Positions 2,059 to 17,593 of a DNA stretch of 64,000 nucleotides are shown here, one piece after another (position 1 is the first letter of the stretch; the number at the start of each line of letters is the position of its first letter). The notes beneath the pieces were generated by a model. The model saw nothing but the letters and a program-made list of their open reading frames with translations. It ran no database searches and had not been told where the DNA came from. A program made the position numbers and the translations under genes. Origin of the DNA: Pseudomonadota bacterium (GTDB lineage: Bacteria > Pseudomonadota > Alphaproteobacteria > Acetobacterales > Acetobacteraceae); contig JAKAWQ010000004.1 in assembly GCA_021816925.1 (NCBI GenBank), forward strand, positions 62,001 through 126,000, given 5' to 3'.

Positions 2059-2835
2059 ATGTCCAACGGAACCGTAAGCACGCTCTACGCCGTGGCGACC
2101 TTCCTGGTCGTGCTCGCGGCCTGGCAGATCGCGGTCACCGCACTCCACGTCGCACCCTATTTCATCCCCTCCCCGCTCGCCATCCTGCACGCGCTCATCG
2201 CCGGACGCGCGCTCTATGCGGCGAACTTCCTCGTCACCCTCGAATCGACACTGATCGCCTTCGCGGTGGCGTTGGCCGCCGGCGTCCTGCTCGGCGCGAT
2301 GGTGAGCGAAAGCCGCCTCCTGCGGCGCACGCTCTATCCGCTGCTGATCGCCTTCCAGTCGATGCCGCGCATCGCGCTCGCGCCTGTGATCATCGTCTGG
2401 TTCGGTTTCGGCATCTCCTCGAAGGTGGTGCTCGGCGCCTTCACCGCATTCTTCCCGATTTTCCTCAACACGGTGCACGGCATGGCGACGGCGGACCCGG
2501 ATCAGCTCGCGCTGATGCGCATCCTGAAGGCAAACCGCATGCAGGTGTTCCTCAAGGTCAAACTCCCTGGGGCACTCCCGTTCCTGCTCGCCGGCGCCAA
2601 CATCGGCATCATCTTTGCGATCCTGGCCGTGATCGTGGGCGAGTTTCTCGGCGCCAATCGCGGCATGGGCTTCCTGATCGTGAACCAGAGCAACCAGATG
2701 GACATGGCCGGAACGTTCGCGAGCGTGTTCCTGCTCTCGGCGACGGGGATTGGCTTTCATTACGGGCTCGGGGCTCTGCGCCGGCGGCTTCTGTTCTGGT
2801 CAGGCACCGGCGAGGCCGGTCGAGAGGCCGGCTGA
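2059..2835 (+). CDS. ABC transporter permease, SsuC/TauC type
   Basis: Inner-membrane permease of 258 residues, the normal length for the SsuC/TauC/ThiX family. About six hydrophobic segments are visible, and the cytoplasmic coupling loop lies around the stretch with ALMRILKANRMQVFLKVKLP, the EAA-like region. It starts 8 bp after the ATPase stop. Together with the flanking genes it forms an importer for a small organic compound; the sequence does not reveal which. Confidence 0.92.
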   Translation: MSNGTVSTLYAVATFLVVLAAWQIAVTALHVAPYFIPSPLAILHALIAGRALYAANFLVTLESTLIAFAVALAAGVLLGAMVSESRLLRRTLYPLLIAFQSMPRIALAPVIIVWFGFGISSKVVLGAFTAFFPIFLNTVHGMATADPDQLALMRILKANRMQVFLKVKLPGALPFLLAGANIGIIFAILAVIVGEFLGANRGMGFLIVNQSNQMDMAGTFASVFLLSATGIGFHYGLGALRRRLLFWSGTGEAGREAG

Positions 2836-2904
2836 TGCGCCGGCGCAAGCGTGTTTCCGCGGCCCGCCCGGCGGGCGCGCGCGGCATCGAGGGAGGAGAA
2901 GAGA

Positions 2905-4062
2905 ATGAACAGATCGACGATATCCGGCCAACCGGCGACAAGCGACCGCGGGGCGTTGTCCAGGCGGAGCCTCCTCAAGGCGGCGGCCGCCGCCGGCCCC
3001 GCCTTGTTCGGCGCGGGCAGCCTCGCGCGCCCGGCGACCGCGCGCAGCCTGAAGAAGGTGACGCTCGTTTACGGCGTGCAGACCATCAATTCCCCGGCCG
3101 CTGACTTCTTCGCCGCCATTCCTGTCGGGCTCGGGCTCTATGCCGAGGAAGGGCTGGACGTGCGCATCGAAACGGTGGCCGGGGCGGGCGCGGCCGTGAA
3201 CCTTCTCGCCTCCGGTCAGGCCCAGTTCGCAACCCACGGCACGCCGGGCCTGTTCGACGCGGTGGACAAGGGCGCGCCGGTGCAGGGCTTCATCTGCGAG
3301 ATCCCGGACTTCATCGAATCAATCGCGGTCGCGGCGGACGGGCCGATCAAGACGTTCGATGACCTCAAGGGCAAGACGATCGGCGTCAGCGCCAACGCCG
3401 GCGCGCCGGTCTTCGTGATCAAGGCGATCCTGCGCAAGAGGGGCTGGAATCCGGAGACAGACGTCCATCTGCTTGCGGTCGGTACCGGCCTGCCGGCGCT
3501 CGATGCTCTGCGGCGCAACCGCATCCAGGCGCTGGTGGAATGGGATACGCTGTTCGCCCTCTTCGAGTTCGAGGGTGCAAAATTCCGCTTCTTCCGCCCC
3601 GAACCCATTCCCCAACTCGGGTTTGCCCACACCACCAACACAACGCTTTCGCTGATCAAAAAAGATCCCGCGATGGTGGCGGGGCTCGGGAGGGCAATTG
3701 CGAAGGCCATGGTTTACATGGCCGCGGCCCCGGTCGAGGCGCTGCAGGCCCTGCATTACAAGCTCTATCCGGCCACCCGACCTTCCGGCCTGACCGACGC
3801 AGAGGTGCTGGAGCTGAACACGCTCCGGCTGAAGGCGCGGCTTTCCTTCATGGGCCTCAAGGCGCGGGTGTTCGAGCGGACGAAAAAGCTGGGCGACGTT
3901 TCGGATGCGAAGATCATCGCGACACGGAACCTTCTTCTGTCCGGAGGCGAAATTCATCACGCCTATCCGGCGAGCCGCTACTTCACGCGGCGATTCATCC
4001 CCGACTTCAACAATTTCAACATTCCGGCGCTGATCGCCAAGGCGAAGGCGCTCCATGTCTGA
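2905..4062 (+). CDS. ABC transporter substrate-binding protein (NMT1/SsuA-like), Tat-type signal
   Basis: Periplasmic binding protein of 385 residues. The ATG at 2905 has a strong GGGAGGAG ribosome binding site. The N-terminus carries a twin-arginine motif SRRSLLK followed by an alanine-rich hydrophobic stretch, so Tat export is likely. The body (LYAEEGLDVRIETVAG, LASGQAQFATHG, DLKGKTIGVSA) is typical of NMT1/THI5-like proteins that bind pyrimidine precursors, sulfonates or aromatic acids. Its 3' end overlaps the dehydratase gene by 8 bp. Confidence 0.9.
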   Translation: MNRSTISGQPATSDRGALSRRSLLKAAAAAGPALFGAGSLARPATARSLKKVTLVYGVQTINSPAADFFAAIPVGLGLYAEEGLDVRIETVAGAGAAVNLLASGQAQFATHGTPGLFDAVDKGAPVQGFICEIPDFIESIAVAADGPIKTFDDLKGKTIGVSANAGAPVFVIKAILRKRGWNPETDVHLLAVGTGLPALDALRRNRIQALVEWDTLFALFEFEGAKFRFFRPEPIPQLGFAHTTNTTLSLIKKDPAMVAGLGRAIAKAMVYMAAAPVEALQALHYKLYPATRPSGLTDAEVLELNTLRLKARLSFMGLKARVFERTKKLGDVSDAKIIATRNLLLSGGEIHHAYPASRYFTRRFIPDFNNFNIPALIAKAKALHV

Positions 4063-4597
4063 GCGGCCGCCCAACGAAGTGAACTACGTCACCCCCGAGG
4101 TGAAGGCGCTGATCGGAATCGAGGCCGAAATGGCCGCCTGGGACGCGGTGGAGCGCGGGACGATCCGCCGCTTTGTCCAGGCGGTGATGGACCCTGATCC
4201 GGTCTATTGGGACGATGGCGAGGCCGCGGGCACGCGCTTCGGCGGCGTCATCGCCCCGCCGCTTTTCCCTCTCTACAATTTCCGTTTTCCGCCGACCGCG
4301 CCGGACGCGCTCATGCCGGCATTGACCGATGCGCTCTACCACGGCGGCTCGTTCCTGCCTCGCTTCGGCCTGCCCGACGTGCCCGGGCCGGAACGACGTC
4401 TGAACGGTGGCAACGAGATCGAGTTTTTTGCTGCTGCCAAGCCCGGTGACCGCTTGCGCGCGAGGAGCCGGATCGAGGATATTTTCCAGAAGGCCGGACG
4501 GTCCGGGCCGATGGTGTTCGTCAGGATGATGATCGAGATCCGCAATCAGGAAGGCGAGATCCTGCTGATCAACCGCCAGACTTCAATCCGGCGCTGA
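4055..4597 (+). CDS. MaoC-like (FAS1-type) dehydratase domain protein
   Basis: Protein of 180 residues resembling the N-terminal hot-dog half of MaoC-like dehydratases (PF13452-like). The VYWDDGEAAGTRFGGVIAPP and NGGNEIEFFAAAKPGD stretches are typical. This half often needs a partner or second half that carries the catalytic Asp/His, and I see no such partner here. Location downstream of an acyl-CoA synthetase and importer suggests hydration or dehydration of the CoA ester. Confidence 0.75.
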   Translation: MSERPPNEVNYVTPEVKALIGIEAEMAAWDAVERGTIRRFVQAVMDPDPVYWDDGEAAGTRFGGVIAPPLFPLYNFRFPPTAPDALMPALTDALYHGGSFLPRFGLPDVPGPERRLNGGNEIEFFAAAKPGDRLRARSRIEDIFQKAGRSGPMVFVRMMIEIRNQEGEILLINRQTSIRR

Positions 4598-4607
4598 TCT
4601 GCCCCGC

Positions 4608-5138
4608 ATGTCTTCGGCACGGAGTGCCCTGCGAAACAAGCCGGCGCGCGGCAGGACGGAAGCGGCGGAAAGGGCACAGGCGGTGGCGGCGCTGCCGGCC
4701 GCTGCCTCGCTGCTGCCTCAGACCTGGTACGTGCTCAACCGGGCGGCGCAGCGCGCGCGCGAACTGGTTGAGGAGGCCATCGCCCCGCTCGGCCTTCGCC
4801 GGCGGCATTACGCCGCGCTTGGGATCTTGGCGATGGAAGGGGCGTTGTCGCAGCAGGCGCTCAGCAGCCGCATTCCGATCGACCGGGCCACCGTGGTGCA
4901 GATCGTGGACGATCTGGAGCGGCTCGGTCTCGCGGAACGCCAGCCGGAGCCGGCGGATCGGCGGGCCTATCAGATCGCGCTCACGGCGGAGGGTCGCGCC
5001 GTGCTGGCGAAGGCGGACCGGCTGATCGCCGGCGCGGAGGCCGAGGCGTTCAAGCCATTGACCGCTGCCGAGAGAAAAGCAATCGATCGCCTCTGCCGGC
5101 GCCTGTGCGGGTGGGAGGCAAGGCGGGGTGGGAAATAG
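4608..5138 (+). CDS. MarR family transcriptional regulator
   Basis: Winged-helix regulator of 176 residues. The recognition-helix region is DRATVVQIVDDLERLGLAER, and the wing has the family pattern PADRRAYQIALTAEGRAVL. It begins 10 bp after the dehydratase and closes the operon. MarR proteins in such positions usually respond to the catabolised aromatic acid or its CoA ester, so it probably regulates the upstream operon. No clear Shine-Dalgarno is seen; the ATG at 4608 is the furthest upstream in-frame start before the dehydratase stop. Confidence 0.88.
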   Translation: MSSARSALRNKPARGRTEAAERAQAVAALPAAASLLPQTWYVLNRAAQRARELVEEAIAPLGLRRRHYAALGILAMEGALSQQALSSRIPIDRATVVQIVDDLERLGLAERQPEPADRRAYQIALTAEGRAVLAKADRLIAGAEAEAFKPLTAAERKAIDRLCRRLCGWEARRGGK

Positions 5139-5237
5139 CCCACGATCGCCCGAGGTGGACCGCCGGAGGACGTGAACGCAGGCTCGGGCAAAGCAGGAGA
5201 GCCATGCCGGGCTGCGCGGCCAAGCCCGACGCGGGTG

Positions 5238-5272
5238 CAAAAAGGGCGGCGCGGGGCACACGCGCCGCCCTT
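5238..5272 (-). terminator. Rho-independent terminator for the PEP-CTERM gene
   Basis: A perfect 12-bp inverted repeat AAGGGCGGCGCG / CGCGCCGCCCTT around a 7-base loop. Read on the minus strand the stem is followed by a run of T (A-run at 5239-5243 on the plus strand). It sits 22 bp beyond the stop of the minus-strand PEP-CTERM gene and may also slow transcription from the plus-strand MarR gene. Confidence 0.8.
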
Positions 5273-5293
5273 GAGCCGGAAAGGGCGTACCCG

Positions 5294-6211
5294 TCAGCCG
5301 CGAGCCCGCCGGCGGGTCACCAAGCCCAGCAAGGCGACGCCGGTGCCGAGAAGGGCGAGGCTGGCCGGCTCCGGCACCGACGGCGGAGTGATCGGCCCCG
5401 CCTGCACGAGCGAGATATCCTCCCCTCCCGAGGTCCCGGTTAAGGTCTGAGAAACGAACGAGAGACTCGTCCCGTTGAACGTGTCCACGACCAGCGAATT
5501 GAAGTTGCAGTCGAACACCAGGTCGGTGCCGAGCGCCGTGCTGCTGTTATTGTCAACGCCCGTCGAGGAGCCGCACGCCGTGCCACCGGGTCCGATCGCC
5601 TGGATGGTGGTCCCGGCAATCTCCGCGCCGGTGATCGGGTTGTACTGATTGTAGGAATTGATCGCGTCACCGGTGTTGATGAGGAAATTGCCGTTCGGCA
5701 GGACCGTGAACCCGTCGCTGCTCGCGAGGTTGGAGCCGTTGGTGTTCGTCAGCGTGATCGGGCCGCCGATGTTGGTGCCGTTGCCGTCCGTCGCCTGGAC
5801 CACCTCCGGCCCCAGGTTGTACCCCGTCATCGCGTAGAGCTCCCCGTTGGCGGCAGCCAGATCGACGATCCCGGTGCCGGGAACCGGGTTTGCGAAAGAC
5901 TTGATGTCGGCGCCGCCCGCGCCGCCGTTGAACGGTGCAACGTAAATCCCGCTGCTCGGGCCGAACCCGTTGGTCAACTCCGTGTAATAGACGAAGTTGC
6001 CGAGCACCTCGACCCCACGCCCGTTATTCGTACCGATTCCCGCCTGTTGCGGGATGAAGCTGTTGATGATCGTCTGCGTCGTCAGATCGACCGTGACGAT
6101 CGGGCCGTTGCCGAACGCGGCGTTGTTCTGAATTCCCAGCACGTCTGCGTAGGCGGGCGCGCCGGCCAACGCCACCATCGAGCCGGCGAGAACGAGTATG
6201 GAAGATCTCAT
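5294..6211 (-). CDS. PEP-CTERM sorting domain exported protein
   Basis: Exported protein of 305 residues. It has an N-terminal signal peptide (MRSSILVLAGSMVALAGAP) and ends with the exosortase recognition signal: VPEP, a hydrophobic helix (ASLALLGTGVALLGL) and a basic tail RRRARG. The middle is rich in N, G, T and S and may form a beta-propeller-like repeat structure, but I do not recognise it. An in-frame ATG 30 bp further upstream exists; I chose 6211 because AGGAGA lies just ahead of it. The exosortase itself is not in the window. A sigma-54 promoter lies upstream. Confidence 0.88.
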   Translation of the reverse strand: MRSSILVLAGSMVALAGAPAYADVLGIQNNAAFGNGPIVTVDLTTQTIINSFIPQQAGIGTNNGRGVEVLGNFVYYTELTNGFGPSSGIYVAPFNGGAGGADIKSFANPVPGTGIVDLAAANGELYAMTGYNLGPEVVQATDGNGTNIGGPITLTNTNGSNLASSDGFTVLPNGNFLINTGDAINSYNQYNPITGAEIAGTTIQAIGPGGTACGSSTGVDNNSSTALGTDLVFDCNFNSLVVDTFNGTSLSFVSQTLTGTSGGEDISLVQAGPITPPSVPEPASLALLGTGVALLGLVTRRRARG

Positions 6212-6265
6212 GTCGATTCTCCTGCCCTGGCGCAGTTCCATGGTGCCCGGGTTCGTTCTACGCGA

Positions 6266-6282
6266 AGCAAAATTTGTGCCAA
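6266..6282 (-). promoter_or_regulatory. Sigma-54 (RpoN) promoter of the PEP-CTERM gene
   Basis: On the minus strand the bases read TTGGCACAAATTTTGCT, against the RpoN consensus TTGGCAC-N5-TTGCW. GG and GC are exactly 12 bp apart as required for the -24/-12 elements. Transcription would start near 6255, about 44 bp before the ATG at 6211. RpoN control together with PrsK/PrsR is known for PEP-CTERM genes in other bacteria. Confidence 0.75.
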
Positions 6283-10277: not shown

Positions 10278-10781
10278 TCAGCCCGGGCCGAGCAGCGTGA
10301 TCAAGGCGGCGATGAGCCTGGCAGGCGTCGGCGGGCAGCCGGAAACCACGAGGTCGACCGGGATGACCGAGGCAACAGAACCCATGCAGGCGGGGCTTGC
10401 CGCGAAGACGCCGCAGCCGGCGGCACAATCGCCGGCCGCGAGCACCCATTTCGGCGAGGGCGTGGCGGCGTACGTGCGCAGCAGTGCCTCGCGCATATTG
10501 CGCGTGACCGGGCCGGTGACGAGCAGCACGTCGGCGTGGCGCGGCGAGGCGACAAAGGAAAGCCCGAAGCGCTCGAGATCGTAACAGGGATTGCCGAGCG
10601 CAATGATCTCGAGCTCGCAGCCGTTGCACGATCCCGCATCCACCTCGCGGATCGCAAGGCTCCGCCCGAGACGACGGCGCGCCGCGCGCTCGAGCGTGAG
10701 GCCAAGCCGCGCCATCTCGGGATCCGCCGGCAGCATTTCTGTGAGCGGGCGGCGAAGGCCCTCAAGCAGCGTGCGTCGCAT
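10278..10781 (-). CDS. HyfI/NuoB-like small subunit of a hydrogenase-4-type complex
   Basis: Fe-S subunit of 167 residues related to HyfI/HycG and NuoB. Cysteines for the proximal [4Fe-4S] cluster are present in SCNGCELE, GDCAAGCG and SGCPPTP. It should carry electrons between the large subunit and the membrane arm. It is the last gene of the hyfB-C-E-F-G-I-like operon and overlaps the large-subunit stop by one base. Confidence 0.88.
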   Translation of the reverse strand: MRRTLLEGLRRPLTEMLPADPEMARLGLTLERAARRRLGRSLAIREVDAGSCNGCELEIIALGNPCYDLERFGLSFVASPRHADVLLVTGPVTRNMREALLRTYAATPSPKWVLAAGDCAAGCGVFAASPACMGSVASVIPVDLVVSGCPPTPARLIAALITLLGPG

Positions 10782-12151
10782 CAGAGATCGTGGCCCGCGT
10801 ACGAGCAGTTGAAGGATTTATTGCAGAGCGGGAAGTCGGCCACGATGTTGCCCTCGATCGCGGCCTCGAGCAGCGGCCACTGGAACCAGGAAGGATCGCG
10901 CGCATGCGCCCGCACGATCAGGCCCTCCGTGATGCGGAGATGGAAGAAAACATCGCCGCGGAACGATTCGACGAGCGAGAAACCTTCGCCCGCGCCGGCA
11001 GGAACCCGGGCAAGAAGCGGGCCGACCGGAAGCCTATCCAGAATTTGCGTGATCAGGCCAAGAGATTCCGAGATTTCTGCGGCGCGGATGCGCAGGCGCG
11101 CATCGACATCGCCGGCCTCGAGCACGGGGACGGAGAAGGAAAGCGCCTCGTAGGGCGGGGTGAACCGGCGGGCGTCGAAGTCGCGGCCCGAGGCACGGCC
11201 GACGAACCCGCCGGCGGCCCAGAGCGCGGCGAGCTCGGGGCGGAGGATGCCGGTGCCGACGGTTCGATCCTGCAACGAGGCGGTGCGGTCATAGAGCGAA
11301 AGGAGCGGAGGAAAGGCCGCGCCGACGCGAGCCGCGAGCGCGCGGAGCCGGGCCTCGCCTTCGCGAGAGAGATCGACGGCCACACCGCCGGGAACGACGC
11401 ACCCCATCATCAACCTGTGCCTGAAGGCGAAGGCGCAGGCACGCAGCACCTCTTCGCGCAGCACCGAGCAGTGCGCGAGCAGCAGGCCGAAGGCGGCGTC
11501 GTTGCAGATGGCGCCGACATCGCCGAGATGATTGGCCAGCCGCTCGAGCTCGGCCATCAGGGCACGGAGCCAGATCGCGCGCGGCGGAACGGCAACGCCG
11601 AGGACGGACTCGACGGCGCGGGCAAAGGCGAAGGCGTAAGCGACGGTGGCATCGCCCGAAATTCGGGCAGCGATGCGCGCCGCCTCGGCCGGCACCTTCC
11701 CCGCCATCAGCGCCTCGACGCCGCGATGCACGTAGCCGAGGCGCTCCTCGAGGCGAACGACGGTCTCGCCGTCGCAGGTGAAGCGGAAATGCCCCGGCTC
11801 GATGATGCCGGCGTGCACCGGCCCGACCGGGATCTGGTGCAGGTGCCGGCCCTTGACCGGAAGGAAGGGATAGACGGTCGGGTTCTCGCCATGATCGAGC
11901 CACCGCCGCGTGTCCGGCAGGCCGAGCGGAACCAGCGGGGAGGATTCGGCCAACGCACGTTCGAGCCGGATGGCCGGGGGATGGAGGCGGCCGATCGAGG
12001 GGAAGGTTCCGTCCGGAGCCGGATGATCGACGATCTGCACGGTGTCATCCAGGAGGAGGGCAAGGCGCGCGCGCGGACCGTCGGCCCAGAGCGAGACGAG
12101 GCCCGCACGGCCGGCGGCAAGAGCCTCGCCCGCTTCACGCCAGGCCATCAT
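10781..12151 (-). CDS. HyfG/NuoCD-like large subunit lacking NiFe ligands
   Basis: Large subunit of 456 residues: an N-terminal 30-kDa-like portion followed by the 49-kDa/large-subunit domain (GHFRFTCDGETVV, RLGYVHRGVEALM, ELERLANHLGDVG). The L1 site, RxCGxC in hydrogenases, reads RISGDATVAY. The C-terminal L2 site (DPCxxC) is replaced by DFPLCNKSFNCSYAGHDL. The NiFe centre therefore cannot be built in the known way. This matches the energy-converting-hydrogenase-related group, whose reaction is not established. Confidence 0.87.
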   Translation of the reverse strand: MMAWREAGEALAAGRAGLVSLWADGPRARLALLLDDTVQIVDHPAPDGTFPSIGRLHPPAIRLERALAESSPLVPLGLPDTRRWLDHGENPTVYPFLPVKGRHLHQIPVGPVHAGIIEPGHFRFTCDGETVVRLEERLGYVHRGVEALMAGKVPAEAARIAARISGDATVAYAFAFARAVESVLGVAVPPRAIWLRALMAELERLANHLGDVGAICNDAAFGLLLAHCSVLREEVLRACAFAFRHRLMMGCVVPGGVAVDLSREGEARLRALAARVGAAFPPLLSLYDRTASLQDRTVGTGILRPELAALWAAGGFVGRASGRDFDARRFTPPYEALSFSVPVLEAGDVDARLRIRAAEISESLGLITQILDRLPVGPLLARVPAGAGEGFSLVESFRGDVFFHLRITEGLIVRAHARDPSWFQWPLLEAAIEGNIVADFPLCNKSFNCSYAGHDL

Positions 12152-13590
12152 CCGAGCAGCGCCGCCGCGTGGCGGAACCAGGAGATCAGCGGCGGCGGCA
12201 ACCAGAGGCCGGCCGCGAGCACGAGCAGGAGGTGGGCGAAGATCGGGAACGAAGAGGCGCGCACCGGGCCCACCTCGCCGCGCACGGGGCCGAAGGCGAT
12301 GCCGCCGAGACGAACGAAGAGCGCGCCGAAGGCAACGAGTAGGGCGAGCACGACAGCGGCGGCAAGCAGAGGCACGCGCGCGAAGCTCGAGCTCACGACC
12401 AGAAATTCACTGGTGAAGATGCCGAACGGCGGCAGCCCCGCGATCGCGACGACGCCGGCGACCAGCGTCCAGCCGAGCAGGGGATGGGATTCCGTGAGTC
12501 CGCCCATCTCTTCCATGCGCTGGGTCCCCTTCGCCTGCGCGACGTGGCCGACGGAGAAGAAGATCGCGGACTTGGTGAGGCTGTGCATGGCCATCTGCAG
12601 AAGGCCGGCGAGATTGCCGAGCGGGCCGGCCATCCCGAAGGCGAAGACGATAATACCCATCTGTTCGATCGACGAATAGGCGAACAGGCGTTTGATATCG
12701 CGCCGGCGGTAGAGCATGAAGGCGGCGAGCAGGGCCGAAACCAGACCGAGCGCCACCATGAGCGGCCCTGGCGCGATCGCGCCGGGACAGGCGGCGAGCA
12801 GGATCTTGAAACGCAGGAGCGCGTAGAGCGCGACATTGAGAAGAAGCCCCGAGAGCACGGCGGAGATCGGGGTCGGGCCTTCAGCGTGCGCATCGGGCAG
12901 CCAGGCATGCATCGGCACGAGCCCGACCTTGGTGCCGTAGCCGAGCAGGAGAAAGACGAACGCGGTATCGAGCAGCGCGGGATCGAAACCGCGCGCGTGC
13001 GCCAGCAATACGGTCCAGATCATACCGGCGTTGCCCTCGCCAACCACGGGGCGGGCGGCGAGATAGACGAGGATGGTGCCGAAGAGGGCGAGCGCGATGC
13101 CGACGCTGCCGAGGATGAAATATTTCCACGCGGCCTCGATCGCCTCGTGGGTGCGGTAGATGCCGACCATCATCACGGTGGAGAGGGTGGCGAGTTCGAC
13201 CGCGGCCCACATGACCCCGATGTTTGCCGCGACGAGGGCGAGATTCATGCCGAACAGCATGAGCTGGTACATCGCGTGATAGAAGCGGAGCGTGGCCGGT
13301 GTGAGGCGCCCGGTCTCGAGCTCGTGTCCGATATAGCCGGCGCTGAAGAGGCTCGTAGTGAAGCCGACGAAGGTGTTGAGGACGATGAAGACGACGTTGA
13401 GATCGTCGATCATGAAGAGCGGCCCGGGCGGCGGGCGGCGGAACAGGAAGGAAAGAGAAAAAAGAAAGGCAACAAGCGAGAAAAGAATATTAAGGCGCGC
13501 GGTCAGGCGGTAATCGGCCAGGAGCGCGAGCAAAGCGGCGCCGCCGAGCGGGACCGCGAGCACGGCGATCAAAGCGCCAAGCGCGATCAT
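12148..13590 (-). CDS. HyfF-like proton-translocating membrane subunit
   Basis: Membrane protein of 480 residues of the NuoL/M/N (Mrp antiporter-like) family, with about 13-14 hydrophobic segments. Conserved features include the Lys/Glu/His-bearing loops in YGTKVGLVPMHAWLPDAHAE and RRDIKRLFAYSSIEQMGII. Its 3' end overlaps the large-subunit gene by 4 bp and its start overlaps the HyfE-like stop by 4 bp. It should form part of the ion-pumping arm. Confidence 0.9.
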   Translation of the reverse strand: MIALGALIAVLAVPLGGAALLALLADYRLTARLNILFSLVAFLFSLSFLFRRPPPGPLFMIDDLNVVFIVLNTFVGFTTSLFSAGYIGHELETGRLTPATLRFYHAMYQLMLFGMNLALVAANIGVMWAAVELATLSTVMMVGIYRTHEAIEAAWKYFILGSVGIALALFGTILVYLAARPVVGEGNAGMIWTVLLAHARGFDPALLDTAFVFLLLGYGTKVGLVPMHAWLPDAHAEGPTPISAVLSGLLLNVALYALLRFKILLAACPGAIAPGPLMVALGLVSALLAAFMLYRRRDIKRLFAYSSIEQMGIIVFAFGMAGPLGNLAGLLQMAMHSLTKSAIFFSVGHVAQAKGTQRMEEMGGLTESHPLLGWTLVAGVVAIAGLPPFGIFTSEFLVVSSSFARVPLLAAAVVLALLVAFGALFVRLGGIAFGPVRGEVGPVRASSFPIFAHLLLVLAAGLWLPPPLISWFRHAAALLG

Positions 13591-14246
13591 CGCCGCTCTC
13601 CCCGGAATTCCTCGAGCGCGGCGAGATCGACGGTATCGAACCGTTCACGGATACGGAACAGGAAGATGCCGATCACGATGAAGGCGATCAGCACCGAGAC
13701 GGCGACGCTCAGCTCGACGACGAGCGGCATGCCGCGCGCACCGCCGGCGGCGAGATCGATGCCGTTGTCAAGCGAGAGGAAGCCCGCGACCTGGCCGACG
13801 GCGTTGCGCCGCGTGACCATGATGAGGAGGCCGATCAGCACCACGGAGAGCGCGAGCGCGATGTCCTGACGCGAGACTGCATCCGCGGCGGCGGTGATCG
13901 GCAGCATGACGCGGAGCGAAAGCGCGACGAGTGCGATTCCGCCGAGCATGGTGGGCCCGATGCCGCCCACCGTCTCGATGAGGCGATGAATGGCCAGCCG
14001 CTCGACCAGCCTCTCGAGCGCACCCGGAATCACGAGCGCCTTGACGACGAGCGCGATCGTCGCGGCGAGGAAGAGATCGCTTGCGGACTGGAGATGCGCC
14101 TGCCAGGCGAGCGCCAGGGCGAGGACCAGGCCGTGCAGGCGAAGCACGTTGAGGAGAGCGCCGATGCGGTCCTGGTAGAGCAGAAGCAGGCTCGTCAGCA
14201 CCATCAGGCCGGCCAGCAGGTGCGCGATGTCGAACGAAAATCCCAT
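13587..14246 (-). CDS. HyfE-like membrane subunit
   Basis: Membrane protein of 219 residues related to HyfE/NuoK-type subunits, with about six or seven hydrophobic helices and the acidic/positive C-terminus RIRERFDTVDLAALEEFRGE. A much longer open frame extends upstream through the HyfC gene, but it is a shadow; the ATG at 14246 begins MGFSFDIAHLLAG and lies 2 bp after the HyfC stop. Confidence 0.85.
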   Translation of the reverse strand: MGFSFDIAHLLAGLMVLTSLLLLYQDRIGALLNVLRLHGLVLALALAWQAHLQSASDLFLAATIALVVKALVIPGALERLVERLAIHRLIETVGGIGPTMLGGIALVALSLRVMLPITAAADAVSRQDIALALSVVLIGLLIMVTRRNAVGQVAGFLSLDNGIDLAAGGARGMPLVVELSVAVSVLIAFIVIGIFLFRIRERFDTVDLAALEEFRGERR

Positions 14247-14248
14247 GC

Positions 14249-15181
14249 TCAGAGTCCGCGCGAGACGTAGAGGAGGAGCGTGCCCAAGAGGCCGAGCATG
14301 AGCGCCCCGCCGATCAGCTCGGGCACGCGAAAGACGCGCATCTTGGCGATCGAGACCTCGAAAATGCCGAGCAGCACGCCGGCCGCGCCGAGCTTGGCAA
14401 GCCAGGCGGCAAGCCCGAGGAGAACTCCCGAACCGAGGCCGAAGGGGAAGAAAATGCAGGCGATGACGGAGATCATCAGCAGCAGCTGGAGTGCGGCGGC
14501 GAGCTCGATCATGGCGAGGTGGCGGGCGGAATATTCGAGCACCATCGCCTCGTGGACCATGGTGAGCTCGAGATGGGTGGCGGGATTGTCCACGGGGATC
14601 CGACCATTCTCGGCCAGCGCCACGATGACGAGGCTGACGAGGGCGAGCGCGGCGGAAACGCGGAGGCCCGCGGCCGGGGAGAGCATGAAGGCGGCGATCG
14701 AGGTAAGCTCGGTCGAGCCGGCGAGGATCGCCAGCGTGACCACGATCATCAGCATCGCGGGCTCGGCGAAGGAGGCGAAGAACACCTCGCGGCTTGCGCC
14801 GATGCCGCCGAAGCTCGTGCCTATATCGAGCCCGGCCAGCGCAAGCAGGAAGCGCGCGGCGCCGAGCAACGCCGTGATGACGATGAGATCGCCGAGGCGG
14901 GCAAAGGCGAGATCGGTCGAGAAGGTGGGCACGACCGAGGCGGCGGCCCAGGTGAGGGCGAGGATGAGATAGGGCGCTGTGCGGAAGAGCCATGAGGCGT
15001 TGTCGGCGATGACCGCCTCCTTGGCGAGCAGGCGGCGGAGCGCGCGGTAGGGCTGGATCACGGGCGGTCCGCGCCGCCGCATCAGGCGTGCCTTGACCGC
15101 GCGCACGAGCCCAACGAGCCCCGGTGCCAGAAGCAGGACAAGCGCCATTTGCAGCGCCTGGATGAGCGTGGCACGGATCAT
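14249..15181 (-). CDS. HyfC/NuoH-like membrane subunit
   Basis: Protein of 310 residues of the NuoH/HycD family, which anchors the peripheral arm to the membrane. It shows the family motif ENGRIPVDNPATHLELTM and the loop GPPVIQPYRALRRLLAKEAV, with about eight hydrophobic segments. The ATG at 15181 overlaps the HyfB-like stop by 4 bp. Confidence 0.9.
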   Translation of the reverse strand: MIRATLIQALQMALVLLLAPGLVGLVRAVKARLMRRRGPPVIQPYRALRRLLAKEAVIADNASWLFRTAPYLILALTWAAASVVPTFSTDLAFARLGDLIVITALLGAARFLLALAGLDIGTSFGGIGASREVFFASFAEPAMLMIVVTLAILAGSTELTSIAAFMLSPAAGLRVSAALALVSLVIVALAENGRIPVDNPATHLELTMVHEAMVLEYSARHLAMIELAAALQLLLMISVIACIFFPFGLGSGVLLGLAAWLAKLGAAGVLLGIFEVSIAKMRVFRVPELIGGALMLGLLGTLLLYVSRGL

Positions 15182-17247
15182 GGCGTGAGCGCGAGAACGA
15201 GCAGCAGGAGGACGAGAGCCGCGAAGACGAACGCGAGATAGCGGCGGATGGTGAGGAACTGGAGCGGATTGAGGGCATCCGCGAGGCGGCGAACGAGGGC
15301 GGCCGGCGGCGCATAGAAAATCTCCCAGAGCCGGTCGTGCAGCACGTGCTCGATGCGCGCCGGCGCCGTCGAGCCCGGCGGGGGCACGCGGATCGTACTC
15401 GCGACTCCGAAGACGAGCGGGCCGAAGGTGCGGCGGATCGGCTCGGCGAAGCTCTGGGCGGTGTACTGAGTGGCCGGGCTCTGGTCGGGAAAGCCGCAAT
15501 CCCAGGCAGGTGCGCGGCGAAGCGCGTGCGAGGCAAGGCGGCGCGCGCCGAGCGCGGCCAGTGTCGTAACGGCGCCGATCAGCAGCAGGATTGCTAGCCC
15601 GTCATAGGAGCTGCGCGCGGCGGCAACCGGAACGATGGCGCCGAGCGGCACACCCGGAGGCGAATGCCAGGGCAGCAGCCCCTGCACCGGCATGGTGGCG
15701 CCCACGAGCGCGCGGGAAACCGGGGCGAGCGCGTCGATCACCGCGCCGGGGAAGACGCCGGCGAAGAGGCAAAGCCCGGAGAGGAGCAGCATGGGCGCGA
15801 GCGCCAGGCGGTCGGTCTCGGCGGCGACGGCGGCGGCGGCGGAACGCGGGCGGCCGAGGAAGGTGATGCCGAAGGCCTTGACGAAGCAGGCGGCGGCCAG
15901 CGCCGCGGCGAGTGCCAGCAATGCGCCGTCCGCGGGGATCAGGAGCTTCGGGCCCCAATCGGGCAGCGCTGGCCCGAGCAGGATCGCCTGGAAAGTCAGC
16001 CATTCGGAGACGAAACCGTTGAGCGGCGGCAGTGCGGAGATGGCGGCGCAACCGATCAGGAAGCAGAAGCTCGTGGTCCGCATGCGGTGAATGAGGCCGC
16101 CCTGGCACTCCATGTCGCGCTCGCCGGTCGCTGCCTCGACGGCGCCCGAGCCGAAGAAGAGCAGGCTCTTGAAGACCGCGTGATTGAACACATGGAAGAG
16201 TGCCGCGGTGAGCGCAAGCGCGGCCGCCGCGCCCTCCCCGCCGGCGCGGAACACCATCGCAAGCCCGATGCCGATGAAGATGATCCCGATGTTCTCGACC
16301 GTGTGGTAGGCGAGCAGGCGCTTCAGGTCGTGCTGCATCAGAGCATAAAGCACGCCGAGCACGGCGGTGAGGCCGCCCACGGCGAGCACGACAAGCCCGG
16401 ACCAGGCGGAGGGGGGGCCGATGAGATCGAAGGCGATGCGCAGGAAGGCGTACACGGCGACCTTCGTCATCACCCCGCTCATCAGCGCCGAGACGTGGCT
16501 CGGCGCGGCAGGATGGGCAAGCGGCAGCCAGGCATGCAGCGGCACGAGCCCGGCCTTGGCACCGGTGCCGAGCAGCGCCAGCACGAGGGCGAGCGCGACC
16601 GTCGCTGCCGCCGGATGGGCGGCGCGCATGGCGGCGAAGCCGTAAGAGCCGGCGGGGCCAGCAAGCAGGCCGAAGCAAAGCAAGAGGAGGAAGCCGCTCA
16701 GCACCGCCATCAGCAAATAGACAGTGCCGGCGCGCACGCTTTCCGGATCGCGGTGACGGACAAGCACGAGCGCCCAGGAGGCGAGCGACATCAGCTCCCA
16801 GGCGAAGAGGAACGAGAAGGCATCATCGGCGAGGACAACGAGGCCGAGGCCGGCGAGGAACACCGGATAGAACGGCAGCACACGCCCCGGCTCGTCCGCG
16901 TGCCCGCCGTGGCGGGCGCGGCCGTAGCCGATCGCGAAGACGCTTGCCGAGGCCGCGCCGAGATCGACGACGAAGAGGAAGAAGGCGGAGAGCGCGTCGA
17001 GGCGGAAGTGCCAGCCGATCCAGGGCAGGCCGAGCGGCAGGACGAGGGTTTCGGGCGGCGCGGCGAGCGAGGCGAGCGAAAGGAGCGCCGAGACGCCGGT
17101 GATGGAAGCGGCGGCGGCGTAGAGCCAGGCCCCTTGCCCTGCCGCGCCCCGGGGTGCGCCTCCGGGCGCGCGCACGGCATCGATCGCCCCGGCAAGGCCG
17201 AGCACGACGAGGATCAGAATGCCGGCGAGGAGTGCGGAGAGGATCAT
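15178..17247 (-). CDS. HyfB-like proton-translocating membrane subunit
   Basis: Large NuoL-type protein of 689 residues with 16 or more hydrophobic segments. Key loops are GTGAKAGLVPLHAWLPLAHP and MQHDLKRLLAYHTVENIGII; the C-terminal third has the long-helix/TM extension seen in HyfB/HycC. The start at 17247 overlaps the upstream regulator gene by 4 bp, so the two are translationally coupled. First structural gene of the complex. Confidence 0.9.
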   Translation of the reverse strand: MILSALLAGILILVVLGLAGAIDAVRAPGGAPRGAAGQGAWLYAAAASITGVSALLSLASLAAPPETLVLPLGLPWIGWHFRLDALSAFFLFVVDLGAASASVFAIGYGRARHGGHADEPGRVLPFYPVFLAGLGLVVLADDAFSFLFAWELMSLASWALVLVRHRDPESVRAGTVYLLMAVLSGFLLLLCFGLLAGPAGSYGFAAMRAAHPAAATVALALVLALLGTGAKAGLVPLHAWLPLAHPAAPSHVSALMSGVMTKVAVYAFLRIAFDLIGPPSAWSGLVVLAVGGLTAVLGVLYALMQHDLKRLLAYHTVENIGIIFIGIGLAMVFRAGGEGAAAALALTAALFHVFNHAVFKSLLFFGSGAVEAATGERDMECQGGLIHRMRTTSFCFLIGCAAISALPPLNGFVSEWLTFQAILLGPALPDWGPKLLIPADGALLALAAALAAACFVKAFGITFLGRPRSAAAAVAAETDRLALAPMLLLSGLCLFAGVFPGAVIDALAPVSRALVGATMPVQGLLPWHSPPGVPLGAIVPVAAARSSYDGLAILLLIGAVTTLAALGARRLASHALRRAPAWDCGFPDQSPATQYTAQSFAEPIRRTFGPLVFGVASTIRVPPPGSTAPARIEHVLHDRLWEIFYAPPAALVRRLADALNPLQFLTIRRYLAFVFAALVLLLLVLALTP

Positions 17248-17498
17248 GGAGCGCGATGGGCGAAGCGCACGCCGCGGCCACTGCCCTGGCTCGTCGCACC
17301 CTCTGCGATCAGCTCGATCCCGGCAACGTTCAAAGCCTCGATGAGCTTCATCAGAGAATCGACCTGGCCGCGGATGACGCCCTCGCTCGCCTCCATGCGC
17401 TGGATGGTCGGCAGCGAGAGGCCGGAGAGTTCGGCCAGGTGCCGCTGGTCGATGCCGAGCAGGGCCCGGGCGGCGCGCATCTGTCCGGCGGTGATCAT
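17244..17498 (-). CDS. Small XRE/HTH transcriptional regulator
   Basis: DNA-binding protein of 84 residues with a helix-turn-helix (GQMRAARALLGIDQRHLAEL, SGLSLPTIQRMEASEGV). The C-terminal part, VDSLMKLIEALNVAGIELIA, is typical of short XRE-type regulators found in alphaproteobacteria. I prefer the ATG at 17498; an ATG 36 bp upstream is possible. It leads the Hyf-like operon and overlaps hyfB by 4 bp, suggesting it controls the operon. The upstream 17500-17570 is AT-rich (a TATACT-like -10 is visible on the minus strand) and is the likely promoter. Confidence 0.8.
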   Translation of the reverse strand: MITAGQMRAARALLGIDQRHLAELSGLSLPTIQRMEASEGVIRGQVDSLMKLIEALNVAGIELIAEGATSQGSGRGVRFAHRAP

Positions 17499-17593
17499 GG
17501 CCCACCCTTTAAGAGTCGAGGAAAGAGTTGGCAATAGTATATCTCAAATATCAGAATTAAATGCTGGAACGCGTGGACGACGATGGGCGCGCG

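Follow-up and report, generated by a model that had tools for sequence, protein, structure and literature searches.

A hyq-type operon in an Acetobacteraceae genome, and relatives of its complex that lack the known proton-pump residues

The operon hyqRBCEFGI of Azorhizobium caulinodans has been published (2009–2012) as encoding an ‘endo-hydrogenase’, which its authors read as an H2:quinone oxidoreductase (PMC2650096, PMC3357923). By the 2012 account, HyqG proteins lack both CxxC motifs and share three conserved cysteines, a nickel–iron (NiFe) site is ‘uncertain, if not unlikely’, and Rhizobium leguminosarum bv. viciae is counted among the carriers (PMC3357923). The operon is described as being under NifA control, and its deletion is reported to slow growth on N2 (PMC2650096, 2009) and to give a nodule phenotype (PMC2930871). 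Here we examine a locus whose sequence places it with this known kind of operon; it lies in a stretch of 64,000 nucleotides from an Acetobacteraceae genome (assembly GCA_021816925.1, contig JAKAWQ010000004.1, positions 62,001 to 126,000), the whole of which is called the window. A preliminary description of the window had called the substrate of the complex unknown; this misses the hyq name and the genetics published for A. caulinodans (PMC2650096, PMC3357923), and the lack of NiFe motifs in HyqG was likewise already in print (PMC3357923).

Six tightly packed open frames on the minus strand, at 10278–17247, encode HyfB, C, E, F, G and I, as the preliminary description had it, and Pfam and NCBIfam matches agree with these names. 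Start and stop codons overlap between adjacent frames, the exception being HyfC and HyfE, which are 2 nucleotides apart. Together with the gene for an XRE-type helix-turn-helix (HTH) regulator, which overlaps hyfB by 4 nucleotides, the operon comprises seven genes, one regulator and six subunits, in the hyq manner:

17244..17534, minus strand: XRE-type HTH regulator, first gene, hyqR equivalent, 96 residues (PF01381, 26.2 bits, cut-off 23)
15178..17247, minus strand: HyfB/HyqB, antiporter-like subunit, 689 residues (NF005086, 808.9 bits, cut-off 667; PF00361)
14249..15181, minus strand: HyfC/HyqC, NuoH-like subunit, 310 residues (PF00146, above the Pfam cut-off)
13587..14246, minus strand: HyfE/HyqE, membrane subunit, 219 residues (NF008556, 80.6 bits, below the cut-off of 136)
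12148..13590, minus strand: HyfF/HyqF, antiporter-like subunit, 480 residues (NF005043, 816.1 bits, cut-off 533; PF00361)
10781..12151, minus strand: HyfG/HyqG, 49-kDa-type large subunit, 456 residues (PF00346, above the Pfam cut-off)
10278..10781, minus strand: HyfI/HyqI, 20-kDa-type small subunit, 167 residues (PF01058, above the Pfam cut-off)

Genes for HyfA, HyfD and HyfH were found neither among these seven frames nor among the three downstream neighbours scanned, in keeping with the earlier statement that ferredoxin-type subunits are absent. The same order, HTH-hyfB-C-E-F-G-I, is present on plasmid pRL11 of R. johnstonii 3841 (RL_RS31260 to RL_RS31230), with identities to the window proteins of 61% (B), 67% (C), 66% (E), 72% (F), 60% (G) and 63% (I), and of 70% over 73 residues for the HTH protein. 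The window genome's next best Hyf-like copies of the six subunits are 30–56% identical to the R. johnstonii 3841 proteins. A plasmid search with HyfG returned 89 records, for which identities were taken from the 20 best and 45 spread rows; among the matches listed these were about 59–65% for Rhizobium, 62% for Methylovirgula, 58–59% for Azospirillum (about 30% for other Azospirillum copies), 45–48% for Variovorax, Cupriavidus, Burkholderia and Paraburkholderia, 38% for Rhodococcus and 33% for Mycobacterium branderi. Hyq of A. caulinodans and its orthologues in Rhizobium, Azospirillum and others share with the window the regulator and six-gene order, a large subunit without CxxC, four cluster cysteines in the small subunit and three equivalently placed cysteines (C258, C491 and C497 of A. 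caulinodans HyqG in the published numbering).

The large subunit HyfG carries RISGDATVAY at residues 163–172. Aligned to E. coli HyfG, with no gap in either motif, it has RISGDA and SFNCSYAG where the E. coli protein has RVCGIC and SLDPCYSC, and the four NiFe ligand positions (S165, A168, S450 and G453) are all replaced. The earlier claim that the protein has neither RxCGxC nor DPCxxC, and hence cannot bind NiFe, is upheld by this alignment. A true NiFe hydrogenase was rejected on the same four positions, and so was the retention of one ligand cysteine in FNC, as C449 aligns one place before the ligand position. The closest PDB match of HyfG is formate hydrogenlyase subunit 5 (E 3.5e-49), and a short NuoC-like N-terminus seems to be kept (seen by eye, with a weak 9-bit match). 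In the HyfG tree, the E. coli protein joins L077, a family relative with the NiFe motif (100/100; the loci compared bear numbers beginning with L), and the phylogeny that had been proposed as a check places window HyfG with neither of the two.

HyfI retains C52, C55, C119 and C149, the four cysteines predicted to hold one [4Fe-4S] cluster, and its closest PDB match is MbhJ (E 3.7e-36), with a gap-free alignment. The pump residues were read against E. coli HyfB, C and F and against NuoH, L, M and N. HyfB keeps E151 (transmembrane helix 5, TM5), K231 (TM7), K262 and K360, HyfF keeps E132 (TM5), K156, K221 (TM7) and K340, and the acidic loop of HyfC is kept from residue 190 on. Both antiporter-like subunits possess the TM5 glutamate and TM7 lysine by which proton pumps of the complex I superfamily are recognised.

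With E. coli hydrogenase 4 (Hyf) and formate hydrogenlyase, the window complex has in common the homologues of HyfB, C, E, F, G and I and the hydrogenase-type CxxC of the small subunit; unlike them, it has no HyfA, D or H, its four NiFe ligands are replaced and its C-terminus has no DPCxxC. Core subunits and pump residues are likewise common to it and respiratory complex I (NuoB, C/D, H, L/M/N), but the NADH module and the quinone-site tyrosine and histidine are missing, and the CxxC spacing is of the hydrogenase type. The gene order in Rhodococcus sp. WAY2 is I-B-C-E-F-G, presumably also that of Rv0082–Rv0087 in Mycobacterium tuberculosis, for which the published annotation (hycD, P, Q, E) gives six genes. 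The latter has been called a putative NiFe hydrogenase under Rv0081 (PMC6901956). Energy-converting-hydrogenase-related (Ehr) complexes, in the wording of PMC6349859, combine a group-4-like large subunit minus the NiFe ligands with antiporter-like subunits; the window complex fits, and its earlier assignment to this type holds for Ehr as a broad class. Ehr is a loose grouping, inside which the hyq operon forms one defined lineage. The sulfane reductase MBS of Pyrococcus furiosus is also of the complex-I family and without a full NiFe site; it keeps two ligand cysteines, a three-cysteine cluster, a shortened motif and extra Mrp-type subunits (PMC7684303), whereas the window keeps none of the four ligands.

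We favour reading the product as a redox-linked proton pump of the complex-I family with putative electron partners, and give this a little better than an even chance. The reading starts from the gene content, the loss of the four NiFe ligands, the retained cluster ligands and pump residues and the orthology with R. johnstonii 3841, and would add to these a redox linkage with a donor, an acceptor and a direction. The product would be a six-subunit membrane complex with one [4Fe-4S] cluster in HyfI and an empty former NiFe cavity in HyfG. Because no ferredoxin-type subunit is present, a soluble low-potential carrier would dock on HyfI directly; the acceptor, a quinone or another small molecule, would bind in the HyfG cavity beside the cluster, and electron exchange would be coupled, in either direction, to proton movement via HyfC, HyfF and HyfB. 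A redox reaction coupled to ion pumping had been suggested before; of that suggestion, the intact pump residues and the missing NiFe site have stood, and the redox linkage is presumed.

Several observations weigh against a redox-linked pump. The quinone-site tyrosine and histidine of complex I, which we take to be Y87 and H38 of T. thermophilus, correspond to Gly and Ile117 of HyfG in the 2fug_4 alignment. Conservation of the cavity residues near C449 does not extend to all pump-intact relatives, no gene for a donor or an acceptor could be recognised in the few neighbours that were scanned, and the window genome has HypD and another NiFe-type hit. The best evidence against it is the H2 phenotype of A. 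caulinodans, which a pump explains only with extra assumptions. At 20 µM O2, the hyq deletion gives 15 times the wild-type H2 release (175 versus 12), and in a hupSL-deletion background release is 540 with the hyq deletion versus 16; below 1 µM O2 the hyq deletion is listed as releasing less H2, 2,600 versus 7,100 (PMC3357923, Table 2).

Such deletion phenotypes (PMC2650096, PMC3357923, PMC2930871) speak for a genuine H2:quinone oxidoreductase, an ‘endo-hydrogenase’ that would split H2 without NiFe, perhaps with a metal on three further cysteines of HyfG, C216, C443 and C449. Sixteen rows of the HyfG alignment, those of the window, Rhizobium and Methylovirgula among them, have all three, and HyfG E118 aligns with HycE Glu193, named as proton donor (PMC9474812; numbering matched in this analysis). 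All four NiFe ligands are replaced, however, with C449 one residue off the old ligand position, and pump-intact relatives of the same gene order (Variovorax, L058 and L059) are without the three cysteines, which are therefore dispensable for the family's common function. The preliminary description had named four ligand cysteines elsewhere in the protein as the finding that would overturn it; only these three were found, and they are not common to the pump-intact relatives. The H2:quinone oxidoreductase claimed for A. caulinodans is not proven at the level of the site, nor is it contradicted by our analysis. We consider a hydrogenase of this kind rather unlikely for the window and prefer the redox-linked pump to it.

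The distribution of hydrogenase and nitrogenase markers was surveyed in 150 genomes of the order, the window genome included. HypD was present in 15 of the 150 and NifH above cut-off in 6. Forty-eight other genomes had a HyfG match at E ≤ 1e-60, these matches covering pump-intact and some pump-less forms; 8 of them had HypD and none had NifH above cut-off. With 40 of the 48 lacking HypD and all 48 lacking NifH above cut-off, the case for H2 recycling as a general role is weakened, and by this sequence survey it appears not to be one for these complexes. No NifH above cut-off was found in the window genome, nor was any NifA site, with the consensus TGT-N10-ACA, found in the window upstream of the operon, near 17534; here the locus differs from A. 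caulinodans hyq, on whose genetics the H2 role rests. Since the regulation has been reported for A. caulinodans only, NifA control may not define the hyq family. On contig C161 of the window genome (about 2627–5836), a NiFe-type large subunit hit adjoins HypD in two overlapping frames, possibly a frameshift, and this pairing leaves room for NiFe maturation in the organism.

Within the Acetobacteraceae, one hyq group has probably been turned from energy conversion to another use: its complexes would neither split H2 nor pump protons, and would do a job yet to be discovered. Loci surrounding HyfG relatives in genomes of the same taxonomic order were collected in sets of 40, 20 and 16, and 80 named loci were obtained by a HyfI scan; the latter include Gluconacetobacter, Acetobacter, Novacetimonas, Komagataeibacter, Gluconobacter, Neokomagataea, Tanticharoenia and Rhodopila. 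Many keep the order B-C-E-F-G-I, and in several holC is nearby at one end and pssA-psd at the opposite end (Pfam names verified on L075). Both antiporter subunits were audited in 27 loci, where the TM7 lysine was present in both subunits of 14 and lost from both in 13; the 14 pump-intact loci also have the four cluster cysteines. Outside this audit stand L055 (HyfB not found), L060 (without membrane genes), L063 (HyfB divided between two frames), L065 and L066 (contig edge), L077 (NiFe motif), and L084, L079, L080 and the genome's own paralogues (other order or truncated), and L067 and L069–L071 were displayed and left uncounted. In L076, L085 and L062, which have lost the TM7 lysine, HyfB, C and F fall below the Pfam antiporter and NADHdh cut-offs (18.4 versus 21.5 bits for HyfF of L062). 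The small genomes L190, L202 and L205 have also lost the lysine from HyfF, and acetic acid bacteria have lost most of the acidic loop of HyfC. The locus at L060 12377–14156 consists of HyfG and HyfI alone, with a LysR-type-looking gene upstream (by eye) and no recognisable membrane subunits, and L069, L070 and L071 are reduced operons, in which frames for B, C and G were found and none for E or F.

Intermediate forms suggest an order of events. The TM7 helix of HyfF is still recognisable in L084 (GYGVLAGLVPLHAWLPDA) and L066 (GYGTLAALVPLHTWLPAA) when set against the window (GYGTKVGLVPMHAWLPDA), with the lysine gone; it is leucine in all four intermediates, L084, L066, L067 and L061. Among these, HyfF keeps the TM5 glutamate in L066 and L061, K156 in L084 and L061, and the TM12 lysine in L066. 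We infer that the TM7 lysine was lost first, followed by most other pump residues and the HyfC acidic loop. In formate hydrogenlyase, mutating Glu199/201/203 of this loop is reported to cut H2 production by 99% (PMC9474812). Three observations speak against a loss of pumping. HycC of E. coli has leucine in place of the TM7 lysine and its enzyme works, according to the same source (PMC9474812); HyfF of Rhodococcus sp. WAY2 (L209 7247–8764) is without the TM7 lysine and the TM5 glutamate, beside a HyfB that keeps both, apparently a separate partial loss; and HyfF of Acetobacter keeps the TM5 glutamate. Given HycC and the Rhodococcus protein, loss of the TM7 lysine alone is no proof that pumping is absent.

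The genes of the pump-less group are maintained by purifying selection, as judged from the ratio of nonsynonymous to synonymous substitution rates (dN/dS). Between A. pasteurianus and A. pomorum this was 0.06 (B), 0.04 (C), 0.04 (E), 0.03 (F), 0.04 (G) and 0.02 (I), and over nine pairs it ranged from 0.02 to 0.46 with start-trimmed frames (HyfB in 4 of the 9 pairs); stop-to-stop frames run into other frames and inflate the value, up to 0.94 for C of L072. The comparator pssA gave 0.00–0.15 in seven of the nine pairs, mostly below the six genes, and was mispaired in the other two (identity about 0.10). Pseudogene decay in acetic acid bacteria was rejected, the frames being open, the starts close-packed and dN/dS well below 1. 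The idea that unrelated genes had taken the place of the membrane genes was likewise rejected by profile–profile matches, each a single pairwise comparison (HyfB E 7e-31, HyfC E 2e-29, HyfF E 1e-10), and by predicted folds. The HyfF model, whose alignment (A3) included five canonical or less derived rows, matches the T. thermophilus membrane domain 4he8_I (Z 32.3, root-mean-square deviation 3.5, 348 residues, 19% identity). The HyfB model (A4, acetic-acid-bacteria rows only; predicted local distance difference test score 79.5) has its best match in 7z0t_C (Z 29.4, root-mean-square deviation 4.2, 487 residues, 12% identity), chain C of E. coli formate hydrogenlyase, which from its length is taken to be HycC, the subunit corresponding to HyfB.

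Among acetic acid bacteria, even in genomes as small as about 1.9 Mb, strong purifying selection has retained the six subunits, their fold and, for the most part, the [4Fe-4S] ligands. All four cluster cysteines are present in 67 of 77 HyfI rows. The other ten comprise three of one genus (g8: L062, L089 and L090), L204, the NuoB row L013 and five mispicked or misaligned rows, three of which (L046, L012, L080) proved complete, the remaining two being L093 and L201. The patterns of the named-loci HyfI scan contain the cluster cysteines themselves, and its count of 77/79 is no evidence of their conservation. In L062, L089 and L090 the small subunit is minus three of the four cysteines (GCGS), with HyfG dN/dS of 0.12–0.14 within the genus, and the last cluster cysteine of L204 is serine. 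HyfI lies 1–4 kb away from HyfG in L190, L202 and L205, and was not found in L065, L069, L071, L194 or L196.

A HyfG profile built from acetic acid bacteria and L084 matches at E ≤ 1e-70 in 139 of the 150 genomes, a count that includes the window genome and pump-intact forms; the level was set after paralogues of the window genome had been seen to reach about 5e-65. When closer outgroups were used for the HyfG tree, the pump-less forms fell into one clade of 17 rows (92/99), in part still open, with the window, Rhizobium and Methylovirgula outside it. In the first tree, the outgroups joined the acetic acid bacteria and the pump-less rows did not come together; when 38 of that tree's rows, counted as pump-less with the residue audit covering part of them, were held together, the log-likelihood was 12.57 above that of the free tree and the p value of the approximately unbiased test was 0.777. 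These results neither reject nor prove that the pump-less group arose once.

A sister group under purifying selection after the loss of pump residues indicates that the family can have a role other than energy conversion, and it raises the question of whether the window complex has redox chemistry of its own. It might instead be a membrane complex for regulation or for handling protons or ions, with a structural or sensory cluster, to which the genus of L062, L089 and L090, minus three of four cluster ligands, would also point. The window, however, has its cluster ligands and pump residues intact, and the lysine/glutamate pairs are conserved in its nearest relatives, which makes this improbable. 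Another known type, either a sulfane reductase like MBS or a piece of complex I that operates together with parts of NADH dehydrogenase, would belong to the same superfamily, and MBS too is without a full NiFe site (PMC7684303), but with none of the four ligands kept, HyfI aligned to MbhJ without gaps, and the best NuoD-type NCBIfam model at 187 bits against a cut-off of 360, it is very improbable.

Beyond the hyq operon, the window genome encodes four more Hyf-like large subunits without NiFe cysteines. Fluoride riboswitches (RF01734, 48.9–55.7 bits, gathering threshold 34) stand just ahead of three paralogous operons of the same genome:

L009 1815–1891, plus strand: fluoride riboswitch (RF01734)
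L010 9384–9445, minus strand: fluoride riboswitch (RF01734)
L011 5539–5599, plus strand: fluoride riboswitch (RF01734)

The three operons begin C-E-F-G-I-B, followed by CrcB and DUF190 in L009 and L010 (DUF190 of L010 by clustering only) and by DUF190 in L011. Their NiFe-less complexes keep the TM7 lysines and, from the riboswitch matches, look fluoride-induced. A similar grouping occurs in a distant phylum, on the M. branderi plasmid L206 (5679–15603), with C-E-F-G, an annotated ferredoxin and a B-like subunit ahead of genes for enolase and DUF190. On plasmid pHY1 of Methylovirgula sp. HY1 (L208), the hyq operon adjoins fae and the genes of an F0F1 ATP synthase.

A sigma-54 scan gave 85 sigma-54-like matches versus 63 expected, nearly all mismatched, and brought no lead for the operon. 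An exact match to TGGCAC-N5-TTGC, which we take to be the sigma-54 consensus, lies at 6267–6281 (minus strand), just upstream of the gene at 5294–6241, whose end resembles a PEP-CTERM anchor.

The window operon itself is of a known kind, and the apparently new part is the pump-less Acetobacteraceae relatives outside the window; among the open-access matches listed there was no literature on a graded series of pump loss or on these complexes in acetic acid bacteria. What the window adds is a hyq operon in a NifH-less genome, which weakens H2 recycling as a general role, and the question of a hydrogenase without NiFe becomes testable in the existing Hyq mutants. In the pump-less group, purifying selection still maintains a relative of complex I that is without the known pump residues. 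The relatives form a natural graded series, from an intact pump through single losses to near-total loss, in food bacteria that are easy to work with and under selection that can be measured, and such a series would reveal which parts of the complex-I machine are needed for roles other than pumping.

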